This document shows positions 36,584 to 56,950 of a stretch of 64,000 nt of DNA, piece by piece; the first letter of the stretch is position 1, and every line of letters starts with the position of its first letter. Source of the stretch: Sphingomonas sp. LaA6.9. GTDB taxonomy: Bacteria > Pseudomonadota > Alphaproteobacteria > Sphingomonadales > Sphingomonadaceae. The stretch lies in contig NZ_JAKVIO010000012.1 of NCBI RefSeq assembly GCF_022601895.1, positions 1 through 64,000 on the forward strand, given 5' to 3'. A model generated the notes under the pieces. That model searched no databases and was not told where the DNA came from. It saw only the letters and a list, made by a program, of their open reading frames with translations. The position numbers and the translations under genes are program-made.

Positions 36584-36757
36584 CCGCTCGTCCTGAGTAG
36601 CCGTTGAGCCTGCCGAAGTGAACAGGTGCGAATTGCCCCCGGCAATCCGCAGCCATGCCGGGGGCATGGCGGCCTGTCCACCGTATCGAAGGAGCGGCTT
36701 GGTGCGTCCTTCGATACGGGCTCTCGGCTGCGCTCGATCCCTACTCAGGATGAGCGG
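36584..36757. repeat. Dispersed palindromic repeat (CGCTCATCCTGAG family)
   Basis: A unit CCGCTCGTCCTGAGTAGCCG opens the segment and its inverse (CCTACTCAGGATGAGCGG) closes it at 36757, with an internal GTATCGAAGGA/TCCTTCGATAC pair. Other copies lie at 40554, 44886, 44957, 45307 and 56715. It is a typical intergenic REP-like element. Confidence 0.75.
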
Positions 36758-40531: not shown

Positions 40532-40553
40532 AGCCGCATGCGTAAAATCAGAC

Positions 40554-40609
40554 CCGCTCATCCTGAGGAGCCGTTTCGCCTTCGCTCGGTCCCTCCTCAG
40601 GAGGAGCGG
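40554..40609. repeat. Dispersed palindromic repeat copy
   Basis: CCGCTCATCCTGAGGAGCCG on the left and CCTCCTCAGGAGGAGCGG on the right form an inverted pair around TTTCGCCTTCGCT. It is the same family as the copies at 36584, 44886 and 56715. It sits between the two S9 genes. Confidence 0.75.
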
Positions 40610-40708
40610 AAGGTGGTGCCGATTTTGCGCAACGTGCTCCAAACGAAAAAGGGGCGGTCGTTGCCGGCCGCCCGTTCAGCCAACTCCAGATACACAAGAG
40701 GAACCCCG

Positions 40709-42673
40709 ATGCCTGGAGCCGGAATGCACCGATTTGTGATCGCGATTGTTGCGGCTCTCGACGGGGCGCCCTTTGCCATGGCCCAGCCTGCCTCCGAGGC
40801 GGCAGCGCTGTTCGGCGTGCGCCCGAACGTGGATTATGTGACCCTTTCGCCTGACGGGACGAAGCTTGCCTTTATCAGCGCAGTGGGCGAACGCGGGACC
40901 GATCTTTACACGGTTTCGATTGGCTCTGGAGAAAAGCCGCACCGTGCGCTGATGGCTGATGGCCTTCCCAAGCGCCTGTCCGATTGCCGCTGGGTTTCGA
41001 ACCAGCGCCTCCTGTGCCAGTTGCTCATCACCACGCAGATCGCCACATCGCTGGATGATGAGCCCACCACGCTTTCGCGGCTGGTTGCGGTGGATGCCGA
41101 TGGCACGAACCTGAAGCTCGTGAGCGACCGCAGCCTTGACCGCTATTATAACCGGCCCACGCTGTTCGGGGGCAATGTCGTGGATTGGCTGCCCGGAGAG
41201 GATGGCGTCGTCCTGATCGGTCAACTGGAGCCCCGTGGCTATGTCGTGGCCAGGGTGGACACGAGGACGGGCAAGCGCGAGCTCGTCGCCGACAGCAACG
41301 CCGATGTCGTGGAATATATATCGGACGGGCACGGCGACGTGCGGATCCAGGGCGTGGGTCAGCGCAAAGGGGCGACGGGCTATGAGTCGTCGCAACTGAT
41401 CTATTATTACCGGCGCAAGGGCGAAAAGAAGCTCGAGCGGCTCGACACGTACGACACGCTGACCGAGGCTGGCTTCAACCCGCTGGCAGTCGATCGCGAC
41501 AAGGACGTCGTCTACGGTTTTCGCAAGGTGGGCGGCAAGCGCGCGGTCTATGCGGTCTCGCTCGACGGCTCGTTCGGGGACAGGCTGGTTTTCGAGCACC
41601 CGCAGGTCGATGTCGACGGGTTGATCCGTTTCGGCCGACAGGGACGCGTCGTGGGAGCGACCTATGTGACCGAGAAGCGCGAGGCGGCCTATTTCGACCC
41701 CGCGCTCAAGGCGCTCTCCGCTTCGCTTTCCAAGGCGCTGCCGGGCCTGCCGCTGATCCACTTCCTCGACGCGAGCCTTGATGAGAGCCGCATCCTGCTA
41801 TGGGCGGGAAGTGATACCGATCCCGGGCGCTACTTCGTTTTCGACAAGAACACCAAGAAGCTGGAGGAAGTCCTGCTGCAACGCCCGCAACTCGAGGGCG
41901 TGAAGCTGGCGACGGTGAAGCCGATCAGCTTTCCGGCCGCGGACGGCACCGTGGTGCCCGGCTATCTCACGCTGCCGCCGGGGAGTAACGGACGGGGTCT
42001 CCCGGCGATCGTCATGCCGCATGGAGGACCGAGCGCGCGCGACGAATGGGGTTTCGACTGGCTTGCGCAATTCTACGCCAATCGCGGCTTTGCCGTGTTG
42101 CAGCCCAATTTCCGGGGTTCGGCGGGCTATGGCGATGCGTGGTTCGAAAAGAACGGCTTTCAATCCTGGCGCACCGCGATCGGAGACATCAACGACAGCG
42201 CGCGCTGGCTGATCTCGTCGGGCGTGGCGGATCCCGCCAAAATGGCGATCGTGGGCTGGTCCTATGGCGGCTATGCCGCATTGCAATCGAATGTGGTCGC
42301 GCCCGATCTTTTCAAGGCGATCCTGGCGATCGCGCCTGTCACAGACCTGCAGCAGCTCAAGCAAAGCGCGCGCAACTTCACCAATGGTCCCGCAGTGCAG
42401 GCGTTCATCGGCACGGGGCCGCATGTGCGCGAGGGATCGCCGGCGCAGAACGCGGCGCAAATCAAGGCGCCGGTGCTGATGTTCCACGGCGACCTCGATG
42501 CGAACGTCAAGCTCGAGCAATCACAGCTGATGGCGGACAGGTTGAAGGATGCCGGCAAGCGCGCGGAGCTGATCGTATATCCGCGGCTGGATCACGATCT
42601 TCGCGATTCAAAGGCGCGCACGGAAATGCTGAGCAAGTCCGACGCGTTCCTGCGCGCCGCCATGGGGATGTGA
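40709..42673 (+). CDS. S9 family prolyl oligopeptidase-like peptidase, copy 2
   Basis: A 654-residue paralogue of the gene at 38558 with the same layout: signal peptide, propeller, then catalytic domain with Ser in GWSYGGYAALQ, Asp in FHGDLDANVK and His in PRLDHDLRDS. Long identical stretches in the catalytic half (PHGGPSARDEWGFDWLAQ) show a tandem duplication; the propeller halves have diverged more. The start is ambiguous: ATG 40709 has GAGGA at good distance, while ATG 40724 also has GGAG and matches the MHRF start of copy 1. The stop is certain. Confidence 0.92.
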   Translation: MPGAGMHRFVIAIVAALDGAPFAMAQPASEAAALFGVRPNVDYVTLSPDGTKLAFISAVGERGTDLYTVSIGSGEKPHRALMADGLPKRLSDCRWVSNQRLLCQLLITTQIATSLDDEPTTLSRLVAVDADGTNLKLVSDRSLDRYYNRPTLFGGNVVDWLPGEDGVVLIGQLEPRGYVVARVDTRTGKRELVADSNADVVEYISDGHGDVRIQGVGQRKGATGYESSQLIYYYRRKGEKKLERLDTYDTLTEAGFNPLAVDRDKDVVYGFRKVGGKRAVYAVSLDGSFGDRLVFEHPQVDVDGLIRFGRQGRVVGATYVTEKREAAYFDPALKALSASLSKALPGLPLIHFLDASLDESRILLWAGSDTDPGRYFVFDKNTKKLEEVLLQRPQLEGVKLATVKPISFPAADGTVVPGYLTLPPGSNGRGLPAIVMPHGGPSARDEWGFDWLAQFYANRGFAVLQPNFRGSAGYGDAWFEKNGFQSWRTAIGDINDSARWLISSGVADPAKMAIVGWSYGGYAALQSNVVAPDLFKAILAIAPVTDLQQLKQSARNFTNGPAVQAFIGTGPHVREGSPAQNAAQIKAPVLMFHGDLDANVKLEQSQLMADRLKDAGKRAELIVYPRLDHDLRDSKARTEMLSKSDAFLRAAMGM

Positions 42674-43880: not shown

Positions 43881-44186
43881 ATGATCGAAGAACGCAAAGC
43901 AGCCGAGATGTGCGGGACGATGACAGAGGTCCGCGCCGGCGTCGATTCCGTCGACCGTGAATTGTCGAGACTTCTGGGCGAGCGCTTCCGCTTCATGGAG
44001 GCCGCGGCGCGGATCAAGCCCGAGCGGAACATGGTGCGCGACGAGGCGCGCAAGGCGGAGGTGATCGCCAATGCGCGCGCCAATGCGGTGGCCAACGGCT
44101 TTCCGGCGGACATCGCCGGCGAATTGTGGGAAGTGCTCGTCGAGGCGTCGATCGCCTATGAACTGGACGCCTTCGATCAGCGCTGA
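43881..44186 (+). CDS. Chorismate mutase (AroQ/PchB type)
   Basis: A 101-residue all-helical chorismate mutase. VRAGVDSVDRELSRLLGERF is the first long helix with the active-site Arg and Asp. RIKPERNMVRDEARKAEVIA holds the Lys/Arg substrate contacts, and LWEVLVEASIAYEL is the last helix. It converts chorismate to prephenate for Phe/Tyr synthesis; the related isochorismate-pyruvate lyase PchB has the same fold, but no pyochelin-type genes are near. The last 10 bases overlap the end of the convergent GIY-YIG/TrmJ gene. Confidence 0.88.
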   Translation: MIEERKAAEMCGTMTEVRAGVDSVDRELSRLLGERFRFMEAAARIKPERNMVRDEARKAEVIANARANAVANGFPADIAGELWEVLVEASIAYELDAFDQR

Positions 44187-45286
44187 CGCGGATTGGCGAG
44201 GCTGGAGAGCACGCCGCGCAGTGTCCGCACCTCCATGCTGTTCCAGCCGGGCTTGGTGAGCAGCGTCCGCAGCGTGCGCCGCGTCGAGGGCGCGCGATCG
44301 GGCGGGAAGAAATAGCCCGCCTTGTCCAGCATCGCGTCGAGCTGGCCGATCATTCCGTCGAGTTCGTCCTGCGGCGCGGGCGGGTCGATCTCGACCGAGG
44401 GCGGCGAGGCGAGGGCTTCGCCCTTCGACCATTCATAGGCGACGAGGATCACCGCCTGGGCGAGATTGAGCGAGCCGAATTCGGGGTTGATCGGCACGGT
44501 CAGGATCTTGCGCGCGACCGCGACATCGTCGGTCTCGAGGCCCGAGCGCTCGGGGCCGAAAAGGATCGCGGACCTGCCGCGCGCCGCGCGCATCTCCTGC
44601 GCGGCGACCTCGGGGGTGACCACGGGCTTGGTGACGCCGCGCTTGCGGACGGTGGTAGCGTAGATGTGCTGGCAGTCGGCCACGGCGTCGGCGACGCTCT
44701 CGAAGACCTGCGCGCGCTCGAGCACGATGTCCGCGCCCGAGGCGGCGGGTCCTGCCGAGGGGTTGGGCCAGCCGTCGCGCGGCGCGACGAGGCGCATCTC
44801 GGTCAGCCCGAAATTGAGCATCGCGCGCGCGGCCTTGCCGATATTCTCGCCAAGCTGCGGACGGACGAGGACGATGGCGGGGGCGCTTCGAGACAGGCCT
44901 TCGCCTTCGCTCAGTCCCTCCCCAGCGTGAGCGGATATCGCGTTGTTTCCTTGATTCCGCTCATCCTGAGGAGAGGCTGAGCCTGGCGAAGTCTCGTCTC
45001 GAAGGATCGCGCCGCGCCGGGAAAGCGCACGCACTGCATCCCAGTCGCCACGGATCAATGCTTCCTTCTTGGCGCGCGACCAACCCTTGAGCCGCTGCTC
45101 GACCGCGAAGGCCTGATCGCGATCGGGGAAGCTATCGGACCATATCAGTTCGATCGGGCGGCGTGATTGCGTGTAGCCTTCAATCTCGCCGTGCTGGTGC
45201 TGCCCAACGCGCGCTTCGAGGTTGTCGGTATGGCCGACATAGTAGCTGCCATCAGCGCAGCGAAGCATATAGGTGAAGAAGCTCAC
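44177..45286 (-). CDS. GIY-YIG nuclease domain fused to TrmJ-type tRNA methyltransferase
   Basis: One open frame of 369 residues from a GTG with GAGGG upstream. Residues 1-93 are a complete small GIY-YIG domain (TYMLRCADGSYYVGHTDNLE, KGWSRAKKEALIRGDWDAV). Residues about 135-369 are a SpoU-class methyltransferase of TrmJ type (VLVRPQLGENIGKAARAMLN, ILFGPERSGLETDD, INPEFGSLNLAQAV), which 2'-O-methylates tRNA position 32. The linker (about 94-134, GSASPQDE...GEGLSEGEG) is a translation of two dispersed palindromic repeats. The parts are separate genes in most relatives I know, so a repeat insertion seems to have joined them. It is downstream of nrdR. Confidence 0.85.
   Translation of the reverse strand: MSFFTYMLRCADGSYYVGHTDNLEARVGQHQHGEIEGYTQSRRPIELIWSDSFPDRDQAFAVEQRLKGWSRAKKEALIRGDWDAVRALSRRGAILRDETSPGSASPQDERNQGNNAISAHAGEGLSEGEGLSRSAPAIVLVRPQLGENIGKAARAMLNFGLTEMRLVAPRDGWPNPSAGPAASGADIVLERAQVFESVADAVADCQHIYATTVRKRGVTKPVVTPEVAAQEMRAARGRSAILFGPERSGLETDDVAVARKILTVPINPEFGSLNLAQAVILVAYEWSKGEALASPPSVEIDPPAPQDELDGMIGQLDAMLDKAGYFFPPDRAPSTRRTLRTLLTKPGWNSMEVRTLRGVLSSLANPRQR
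44886..45006. repeat. Two dispersed palindromic repeats inside a coding frame
   Basis: Units at 44886-44934 (CTTCGAGACAGGCCTTCGCC ... GTGAGCGG) and 44957-45006 (CCGCTCATCCTGAGGAGAGG ... CTCGAAGGA) are inverted relative to each other. They match the intergenic family at 36584, 40554, 45307 and 56715. Here they are translated as the linker of the GIY-YIG/TrmJ fusion without any stop codon. Confidence 0.8.
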
Positions 45287-45306
45287 TGCATGCCCTCTGG
45301 CTGCGG

Positions 45307-45356
45307 TCCTTCGAGACGGGCCTTCGCCATGCTCAGTCCCTCCTCAGGATGAGCGG
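45307..45356. repeat. Dispersed palindromic repeat copy
   Basis: TCCTTCGAGACGGGCCTTCG ... CCTCCTCAGGATGAGCGG in the gap between nrdR and the GIY-YIG/TrmJ fusion. It is the same family as the copies within the fusion, 300 bases away. Confidence 0.75.
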
Positions 45357-45379: not shown

Positions 45380-45841
45380 TCACTTGTCCCCCATTTCCTT
45401 CACCGACCCTGCGAAATCCTCGAAATCCTTGGCTTCGGTGAAGTCCTTGTAGACGCTGGCGAAGCGGATATAGGCGACGCTGTCGAGCGCCTTCAGGCCA
45501 TCCATCACCATGCCGCCAAGCTGGGTGGCGGTGACCTCGCTCTCGCCGCTCGTCTCGATCTGGCGCTGGATCGCGGAGACAAGCTTGTCGATGCGGGTCT
45601 GGTCGATCGCGCGCTTGCGACAGGCGATCGCGATCGAGCGTTCGAGCTTTTCGCGGTCGAATGGTTCGCGGCCGCCCTCGCTCTTGACCACGGTCAGCTC
45701 GCGCAGCTGGATACGCTCGAAGGTCGTGAAGCGCGCGCCGCAGCCCTCGCACTGGCGCCGCCGGCGGATCGCCGCCCCGTCTTCGGTGGGGCGGCTGTCC
45801 TTCACCTGGCTGTCTTCATGGCCGCAGAACGGGCACTTCAA
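45380..45841 (-). CDS. nrdR: Transcriptional repressor NrdR
   Basis: A 153-residue regulator of ribonucleotide reductase genes. The N-terminal zinc ribbon has C3, C6, C31 and C34 ([31 protein letters not shown]). The ATP-cone follows ([20 protein letters not shown]), sensing ATP/dATP. Length is typical. It starts 3 bases after the glyA stop, so it belongs to the rpiB-glyA-nrdR operon, a common alphaproteobacterial arrangement. Confidence 0.97.
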
Positions 45842-56714: not shown

Positions 56715-56828
56715 CCGCTCATCCTGAGGAGCCGTTGAGCTTGCCGAAACGGCGTCTCGAAGGACGCAACGCGCATGATCCTTCGAGACGAGGCTTCGCC
56801 GGGCTCAGCCTCTCCTCAGGATGAGCGG
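56715..56828. repeat. Dispersed palindromic repeat copy (double unit)
   Basis: Two inverted units: CCGCTCATCCTGAGGAGCCG at the left, CCTCTCCTCAGGATGAGCGG at the right, with GTCTCGAAGGA and TCCTTCGAGAC facing each other inside. Same family as at 36584, 40554, 44886 and 45307. Lies between divergent murI and plsY. Confidence 0.8.
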
Positions 56829-56950
56829 ACCGGTGGAAGATAGCGCGCTACTCGATTGTCCGTCCGTTGCGCAATCTGCAGCAGGTCATTGACGCGGATT
56901 GTTGCGGGGACGCGATAATCGACTATGTTCCGCCCTCGACTAAGAAGGCG

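Follow-up and report, generated by a model that had tools for sequence, protein, structure and literature searches.

A GIY-YIG nuclease gene bracketed by REP sequences and joined in frame to trmJ in Sphingomonas and related genomes

Among the closest described counterparts of the locus reported here are REPtrons, in which one small enzyme gene, a RAYT encoding a Y1 HUH transposase, is bracketed by dispersed palindromes of the GTAG type (REPs), often arranged as dimers (PMC3733652). The 2013 survey that describes them also defines CGTC REPs, with the tag CGTC (or TGTC, CCTC), an 8-9 bp stem starting with AT, a 4-5 nt loop and a CCA tail; these are known from five phyla, include dRS3 of Neisseria and the Rickettsia elements RPE-4 and RPE-6, and in the survey's description "apparently lack a dedicated transposase" (PMC3733652). 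A related protein fusion has been named as well: ELI_05635 of Erythrobacter litoralis, reported in 2007 with its function left open, consists of an N-terminal GIY-YIG domain and a TrmJ-family SPOUT methylase (COG0565), and TrmJ-family proteins of other Alphaproteobacteria are described as fused to a C-terminal PD-(D/E)XK (DUF559) domain (PMC1829167).

Both kinds of organization meet in the window, by which we mean the whole 64,000 nt stretch of Sphingomonas sp. LaA6.9 that was analysed. As in a REPtron, an enzyme gene has on either side REPs that recur at scattered places in the genome. However, the enzyme is a GIY-YIG nuclease and not a Y1 transposase, no PF01797 match being present in the 95-contig assembly, and a RAYT was rejected as the mover of the window REPs for this reason. 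The repeats likewise differ from GTAG, being CCGTTCG- or CCGCTCA-tagged around the class of GIY-YIG genes to which that of the window belongs (class A) and often CGTC-tagged around a second class (class B). The domain order of the window's fusion is that of ELI_05635, and Erythrobacter is again among the genera with fusions found here (L123); the published passage on ELI_05635 treats it as a single protein and makes no mention of repeats (PMC1829167), whereas we describe 47 distinct loci, REP-derived linkers and cassettes that differ at a shared site. The fusion itself is therefore of a known kind, and its probable derivation from a nuclease cassette with REPs on both sides appears new as far as the literature was searched. 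In the titles and abstract openings among the matches listed, a set with preprints and most subscription journals outside its scope, no paper links GIY-YIG to REPs; 'GIY' does not occur in the main text of the 2013 survey (PMC3733652), and in the searched portion of the 2006 GIY-YIG phylogenomics paper 'palindrom' does not occur and 'repeat' refers to protein repeats (PMC1564403).

The features of the locus are collected in Table 1. Residues 3-74 of the fused product match the GIY-YIG family (Pfam PF01541, 61.2 bits, cut-off 22.6), a membership that the conserved residues also bear out, and residues 137-284 match the SpoU methylase family (Pfam, 78.4 bits, cut-off 29.7). The TrmJ/YjtD model TIGR00050 of NCBIfam matches residues 137-364 with 157.7 bits, just below its cut-off of 167.15. 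The reading frame and the Pfam matches confirm the proposal of the sequence-only reading that the two parts are joined in one frame of 369 codons, and its further claim that the linker is the in-frame translation of two REPs was equally borne out. The gene upstream is one that we take to be nrdR. Scans of a defence library gave no match for the fusion or for GIY-YIG genes of class A or class B, and those of a phage library gave none for the fusion or class A; one class B protein has weak matches to phrog_314, phrog_5123 and TIGR01453.

Table 1. Features of the fused locus and of the REP copies in the window
Feature	Position	Strand	Remarks
Fused GIY-YIG + REP-derived linker + TrmJ ORF	44177..45286	-	369 aa, GTG start
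GIY-YIG nuclease domain, class A (residues 1-91)	45014..45286	-	Y6, G18, R26, H30, E63 present
Linker, translated REPs (residues 92-133)	44888..45013	-	sequence, AlphaFold2, dN/dS
TrmJ part (residues 134-369), SPOUT tRNA 2'-O-methyltransferase by similarity	44180..44887	-	
nrdR, neighbour upstream of the fused ORF	45380..45841	-	annotated nrdR at homologous locus
REP 3' of the GIY-YIG gene, inside the linker	44957..45010	-	
REP 5' of the GIY-YIG gene, between nrdR and the fused ORF	45303..45356	+	tag GAGCGG outward
Extra linker REP adjoining the TrmJ part	44886..44934	+	
REP dimer, same family	56715..56835		no gene inside
REP pair, same family	36584..36757		first arm absent from genome-wide match list
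REP, same family	40554..40609	-	at mechanical start of an ORF

The REPs 5' and 3' of the GIY-YIG gene form an inverted pair that encloses it, with 292 nt between arms that are 89% complementary. A search of the 4.39 Mb genome with the window REP gives 74 places at E <=10 and at least 52 at E <=1e-6, and among these 74 listed places there are 30 tag-outward neighbour pairs with spacers of 0-14 nt. Wider tag-outward pairs among these places number just two, with spacers of 89 and 292 nt, and the 292-nt pair is the one holding the GIY-YIG gene. The gene-less dimer at 56715 has a single-strand fold of -43.6 kcal/mol (z -6.8); the idea that a single REP is a stable hairpin was rejected, as single copies fold no better than shuffled DNA (z 0.27, -0.80 and -1.01). 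The family ends in GAGCGG and has a different core from the CGTC type, an identification that was dropped after comparison with the survey's description (PMC3733652). Copies had been placed at 36584, 40554, 45307 and 56715, and all four are present; that they lie only between genes is nearly but not strictly right, since the 40554 copy overlaps the start of the ORF at 40538-42673. The mechanical N-terminus of that ORF is a translated REP, and its true start is probably downstream.

An AlphaFold2 model built with 17 relatives gives the GIY-YIG domain (residues 1-90) pLDDT block means of 83-95 and the linker (residues 91-131) values below 50, with mostly moderate confidence in the TrmJ part (block means 53-91). 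Over the whole protein the mean pLDDT is 75.4 and the pTM 0.44, so that the placing of the two parts relative to each other is not predicted. Between G000 (the window's genome) and G002, one species pair, dN/dS is 0.09 for the GIY-YIG domain, 0.81 for the linker and 0.05 for the first 150 codons of TrmJ. The linker is predicted to be disordered and is nearly neutral, and the GIY-YIG domain is under purifying selection. The TrmJ part encoded in G002 (L035) carries a short in-frame insert, HAPSEAEGG, that resembles another translated REP.

Fusions of this kind recur. The same in-frame fusion is found in four of the five genomes searched in the window's genus (G000-G003, absent from G004), which shows that it reflects neither chance nor an indel. 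A draw of 149 genomes of the family gave a single match spanning both domains in 16. Some match was present in 146 of them, and reading 30 loci and 40 regions from these added G107 and G086. Among the best 80 of 557 relatives, taken as the class A loci, 29 are fusions, all in frame and with no stop. Altogether 49 loci, 47 of them distinct, have an in-frame GIY-YIG-TrmJ fusion at the nrdR|trmJ junction, nearly all titled or placed as Sphingomonadales, and Y6, G18, R26, H30 and E63, a subset of which we take to be catalytic, are conserved in 49/49 fused domains. GIY-YIG genes that precede trmJ are fused to it in 49 of 50 cases. The exception is Sphingomonas parapaucimobilis, in which nrdR, the GIY-YIG gene and trmJ are separate, the GIY-YIG stop and the trmJ start overlap by 4 nt (GTGA) and a REP sits at the end of the GIY-YIG gene; the arrangement of separate genes with a REP between them, predicted for relatives from the sequence alone, was found this once. 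Of the 52 trmJ loci that have no GIY-YIG gene in front, 38 show the end of nrdR no more than 30 nt from the TrmJ core; in 9 nrdR lies further off, and in 5 it was not matched. That nrdR mostly lies directly before trmJ where the cassette is absent identifies the GIY-YIG gene as the newcomer, and an ordinary fusion of two resident genes was rejected on the same ground. The earlier suggestion that a repeat merged two neighbouring genes accordingly stands as to the joining through REPs and the loss of the TrmJ start, and fails as to the GIY-YIG gene being an original neighbour.

The linkers carry the mark of REPs throughout. Of the 49 linkers, 40 contain a REP tag motif, as against 0 of 232 TrmJ segments cut to equal lengths; with tag or core motif counted, the figures are 45 of 49 and 19 of 232. 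The four linkers with no scored motif (L037, L057, L061 and L247) are by eye variant REPs, and the same fusion without repeats, which would have spoken against the sequence-only reading, was not clearly found. Several distinct REP families are represented across the fused loci. At 26 of the 49 loci, that of the window among them, the 30 codons ahead of the TrmJ core contain no in-frame ATG, GTG or TTG; at 13 an in-frame ATG lies within 12 codons of the core, from which TrmJ alone could be made. Three of the 49 fused domains lack a start codon at the aligned first residue and must start elsewhere.

Class A GIY-YIG genes are also found on their own, and these too mostly lie between REPs. Bracketing was scored by comparing 250 bp on each side, a matching repeat scoring >=16 being counted, at 79 class A loci (L147, with a short flank, was left out). 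Matching repeats on both sides were found at 65 of 79 class A loci as against 8 of 888 control ORFs of the same loci; controls of 240-360 nt were bracketed in 2 of 133 cases. By type, 45 of 50 stand-alone genes and 20 of 29 fused ones are bracketed, five of the 50 stand-alone genes having no detectable repeat pair, and this predominance of REP-bracketed stand-alone relatives argues against a repeat having merged two ordinary neighbours. Three stand-alone genes in G002 each lie between a different REP family. In many class A arms the tag is CCGTTCG or CCGCTCA and points outward, and the core resembles GAGC..GTCGA. With a fixed motif, the nearest REP upstream of the 79 genes is tag-outward in 55 cases, inward in 9 and absent in 15, and the nearest downstream is tag-outward in 65, inward in 5 and absent in 9. 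A tag-outward REP is present on both sides of 50 of the 79, and a REP motif was found in the same span at 38 of 1316 random positions. The nearest solved structures to class A by sequence are the UPF0213/YazA proteins (PDB 1zg2 and 1ywl, E 4.8e-22 and 1.7e-19).

Two departures from the usual setting may be recorded. On a plasmid of Sphingomonas paeninsulae, rnc and era enclose a class A gene for which no pair of matching repeats was found (L314, score 10). Class A genes also occur in metagenome-assembled contigs titled Dehalococcoidia, Chloroflexota and Anaerolineae (L156, L121, L094 and L152); L156 falls among Sphingomonadales sequences in the GIY-YIG tree, so that transfer or a binning error is possible.

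The association extends to one further class of GIY-YIG genes. A phylum survey took 80 stand-alone loci from a 120-genome draw, in listed order among the matches listed (G261:C203 was passed over), with the class A limit at 85 bits, a value chosen after a gap between 71 and 90 had been seen. Bracketing was found for 7 of 8 class A genes, 22 of 29 class B genes, 0 of 43 other GIY-YIG genes and 1 of 156 control ORFs, and is limited to these two classes in the survey. UPF0213-type genes make up much of the 43 unbracketed loci, and yazA of a B. subtilis plasmid has a bracketing score of 8. One class B gene from each of 25 further genomes gave 15 of 25 bracketed and controls 0 of 11; no repeat pair was detectable for 7 of the 29 class B genes of the phylum survey and 10 of the 25. 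In the window's genus all ten class B genes lie between repeats, nine of them from relatives and the tenth that of the window's genome (L003, G000:C16:20794-21012), which is enclosed by perfect inverted repeats of 35 nt (TCGTCACCCCGGGCTTGACCC...). A CGTC tag, an 8-bp stem starting with AT, a 4-nt loop and a CCA tail can be recognised in class B flanks such as TGTCATTCCCGCGAAAGCGGGAATCCA, a fit judged by eye against the survey's description (PMC3733652) and with only part of the arms in the full form; the full CGTC-1 form occurs in the arms of 4 of the 10 genes of the genus and in several arms of the other class B sets. Records were also examined from groups that the 2013 survey names. There, matching repeats on both sides, of the CGTC type, accompany class B genes of Neisseria and Azospirillum lipoferum, and matching repeats on both sides accompany that of Sinorhizobium meliloti and a Rhizobium plasmid gene; a Photobacterium class B gene has no matching repeats on both sides. 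A class B gene is present in 11 of 17 genomes with the strict CGTC-1 pattern as against 32 of 125 (Fisher p 0.003, kinship ignored), and at E 1e-15 none was found in the other 6 of the 17. On plasmid AZO_p3 of A. lipoferum the class B gene, with CGTC REPs on both sides, separates sufB from sufC and so occupies an operon junction as well (L310).

At the nrdR|trmJ junction itself, relatives with matching neighbours carry different cassettes. Percent identities for nrdR, GIY-YIG and TrmJ are 93/63/94 between L082 and L112, 99/67/94 between L080 and L148, 84/53/90 between the window and G003 and 96/63/92 in a further pair of relatives; other close pairs keep all three alike, as with the 93-98 percent of L063 and L065 (L079 and L105, which are short, were omitted from this comparison and from the TrmJ tree). 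About 10 nt past the cassette, L112 and L099 both carry the outer half of the other REP family, as if an older cassette had given way to the present one through a break in that REP's core, in what would probably be one event. Mapping fusion onto the TrmJ tree takes a minimum of 25 changes, of which 10 fall on well-supported branches, and a single clade of fused TrmJ is rejected (AU p 6.8e-5). The GIY-YIG tree is poorly resolved; there, grouping the fused domains in a single clade is not rejected (AU p 0.79), and the constrained tree scored better. The TrmJ tree thus speaks against a single fusion inherited with its host and the GIY-YIG tree does not, and the two together leave one GIY-YIG lineage with many losses and one that spread both in place.

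Genes of free-standing GIY-YIG homing endonucleases are patchily distributed and undergo replacement at a given site. The GIY-YIG gene of the cassette has both features in common with them, and differs in that no extra domain appears in library scans and that the palindromes around it have copies throughout the genome. As regards site-specific spread into cognate empty alleles, its hosts are scattered and the cassettes found at one site differ; no homing event was observed in the genomes compared.

Within the window's genus, the REP family that is amplified goes with the type of cassette present. The window family has at least 52 copies in G000 and at least 55 in G002, which carry alike cassettes, with 2 in G001 and none in G003 or G004; the REP of the G003 cassette has 7 copies in G003, 1 in G001 and 0 in the other genomes of the genus. 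The rule holds only in part in Sphingobium, and the result there is mixed. Five Sphingobium and two Sphingomonas genomes (G400-G406) were compared, some counts being minima of the form at least n. Family 1 has 26, 8 and 6 copies in the hosts of its cassette (G400, G401 and G402). It also has 8 copies each in G403 and G404, both with the other type of cassette, while G405 contains 8 and G406 contains 2. Family 2 has 2 copies in each of the hosts of that cassette (G403, G404 and G406), one of them the linker's own, and 0 in G400, G401, G402 and G405.

A probable scenario, to which we give a probability of roughly 0.7, is that a small mobile-type REP cassette is built around the GIY-YIG gene and that the fusion is such a cassette lodged at the nrdR|trmJ junction. 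The alternative of a domesticated host nuclease, which would act on REP hairpins in repair, replication or at transcript ends, be regulated by the nearby REPs and no longer be mobile, has in its favour the dN/dS of 0.09 in the one species pair, the active-site residues kept in 49/49 fused domains and the flanking sequence that G001 and G002 have in common at one stand-alone gene (L040 and L045). It is rather unlikely given the scattered hosts, the 25 changes on the TrmJ tree with a single clade rejected at AU p 6.8e-5 and the different cassettes at one site between relatives. That the GIY-YIG genes are cargo or mere neighbours of REPs moved by another enzyme, the nuclease having no REP role, is unlikely too. 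Such an arrangement would fit the 6 of 17 CGTC-1-positive genomes that have REPs and no matching GIY-YIG gene, and the family 1 REPs in hosts of the other cassette type, but not the restriction of bracketing to two GIY-YIG classes (0 of 43 others, nearly no control ORFs); the window's genome moreover has no Y1 transposase match, and the 2013 survey's account ties no transposase gene to CGTC REPs (PMC3733652).

Other readings concern the fused product. The frame could be split in part of the loci, with TrmJ either translated from a start codon inside the frame or released from the finished protein, as the in-frame ATG within 12 codons of the core at 13 of 49 loci and the separate, overlapping genes of S. 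parapaucimobilis would allow; with no in-frame ATG, GTG or TTG within 30 codons of the core at 26 of 49, window included, we consider this improbable, and nothing was found that points to splitting after translation, as had been suggested. It had also been suggested that the nuclease is directed to tRNA, and nothing was found pointing there either. A bifunctional tRNA enzyme whose nuclease acts on RNA bound by TrmJ would account for a fusion that is present in many genomes with both domains constrained, yet it is very improbable in view of the predicted disorder and near neutrality of the linker, the 52 trmJ loci with no GIY-YIG gene in front and the occurrence of the same nuclease class alone between REPs elsewhere. 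A sequencing or assembly artefact is refuted, since 47 distinct loci from many assemblies share the frame. A single ancestral fusion followed by many losses would agree with the fused-GIY clade (AU p 0.79) on a poorly resolved tree.

Returning to the mobile cassette, its unit would be REP - GIY-YIG gene - REP, the two repeats facing each other in inverted orientation and each tag pointing away from the gene, and the abundant REP dimers would be its gene-less form. By analogy with RAYTs, we conclude that the small GIY-YIG nucleases are probably the partner enzymes of these REPs. We infer that they cleave DNA and mobilise REPs: the nuclease would most likely recognise and cut REPs of its own family, and cassettes and dimers would spread by cut-and-repair. 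One GIY-YIG lineage may then have become established between the closely spaced nrdR and trmJ genes of Sphingomonadales, where its 3' REP came to be read through and the start of TrmJ itself was lost or made optional. The cell would make a single polypeptide of nuclease, disordered linker and methylase, the GIY-YIG and TrmJ domains probably working independently. Being tied to a conserved gene would, we propose, secure both expression and retention of the cassette.

The link of GIY-YIG genes to non-GTAG REPs is the important part of the finding, and a gene class located inside CGTC REP pairs, for which the 2013 survey names no dedicated enzyme in its description (PMC3733652), provides a directly testable enzyme candidate. 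The wider proposal is one that we regard as evenly poised: the two GIY-YIG classes would be the missing enzymes of non-GTAG REPs (CGTC and CCGTTCG/CCGCTCA) in a non-HUH form of REP mobility, the dimers their gene-less derivatives, and the TrmJ fusion a cassette homing to the nrdR|trmJ junction and tied to a host gene. If true, this would explain how a nuclease came to be fused to a tRNA methylase through residues encoded by repeats.
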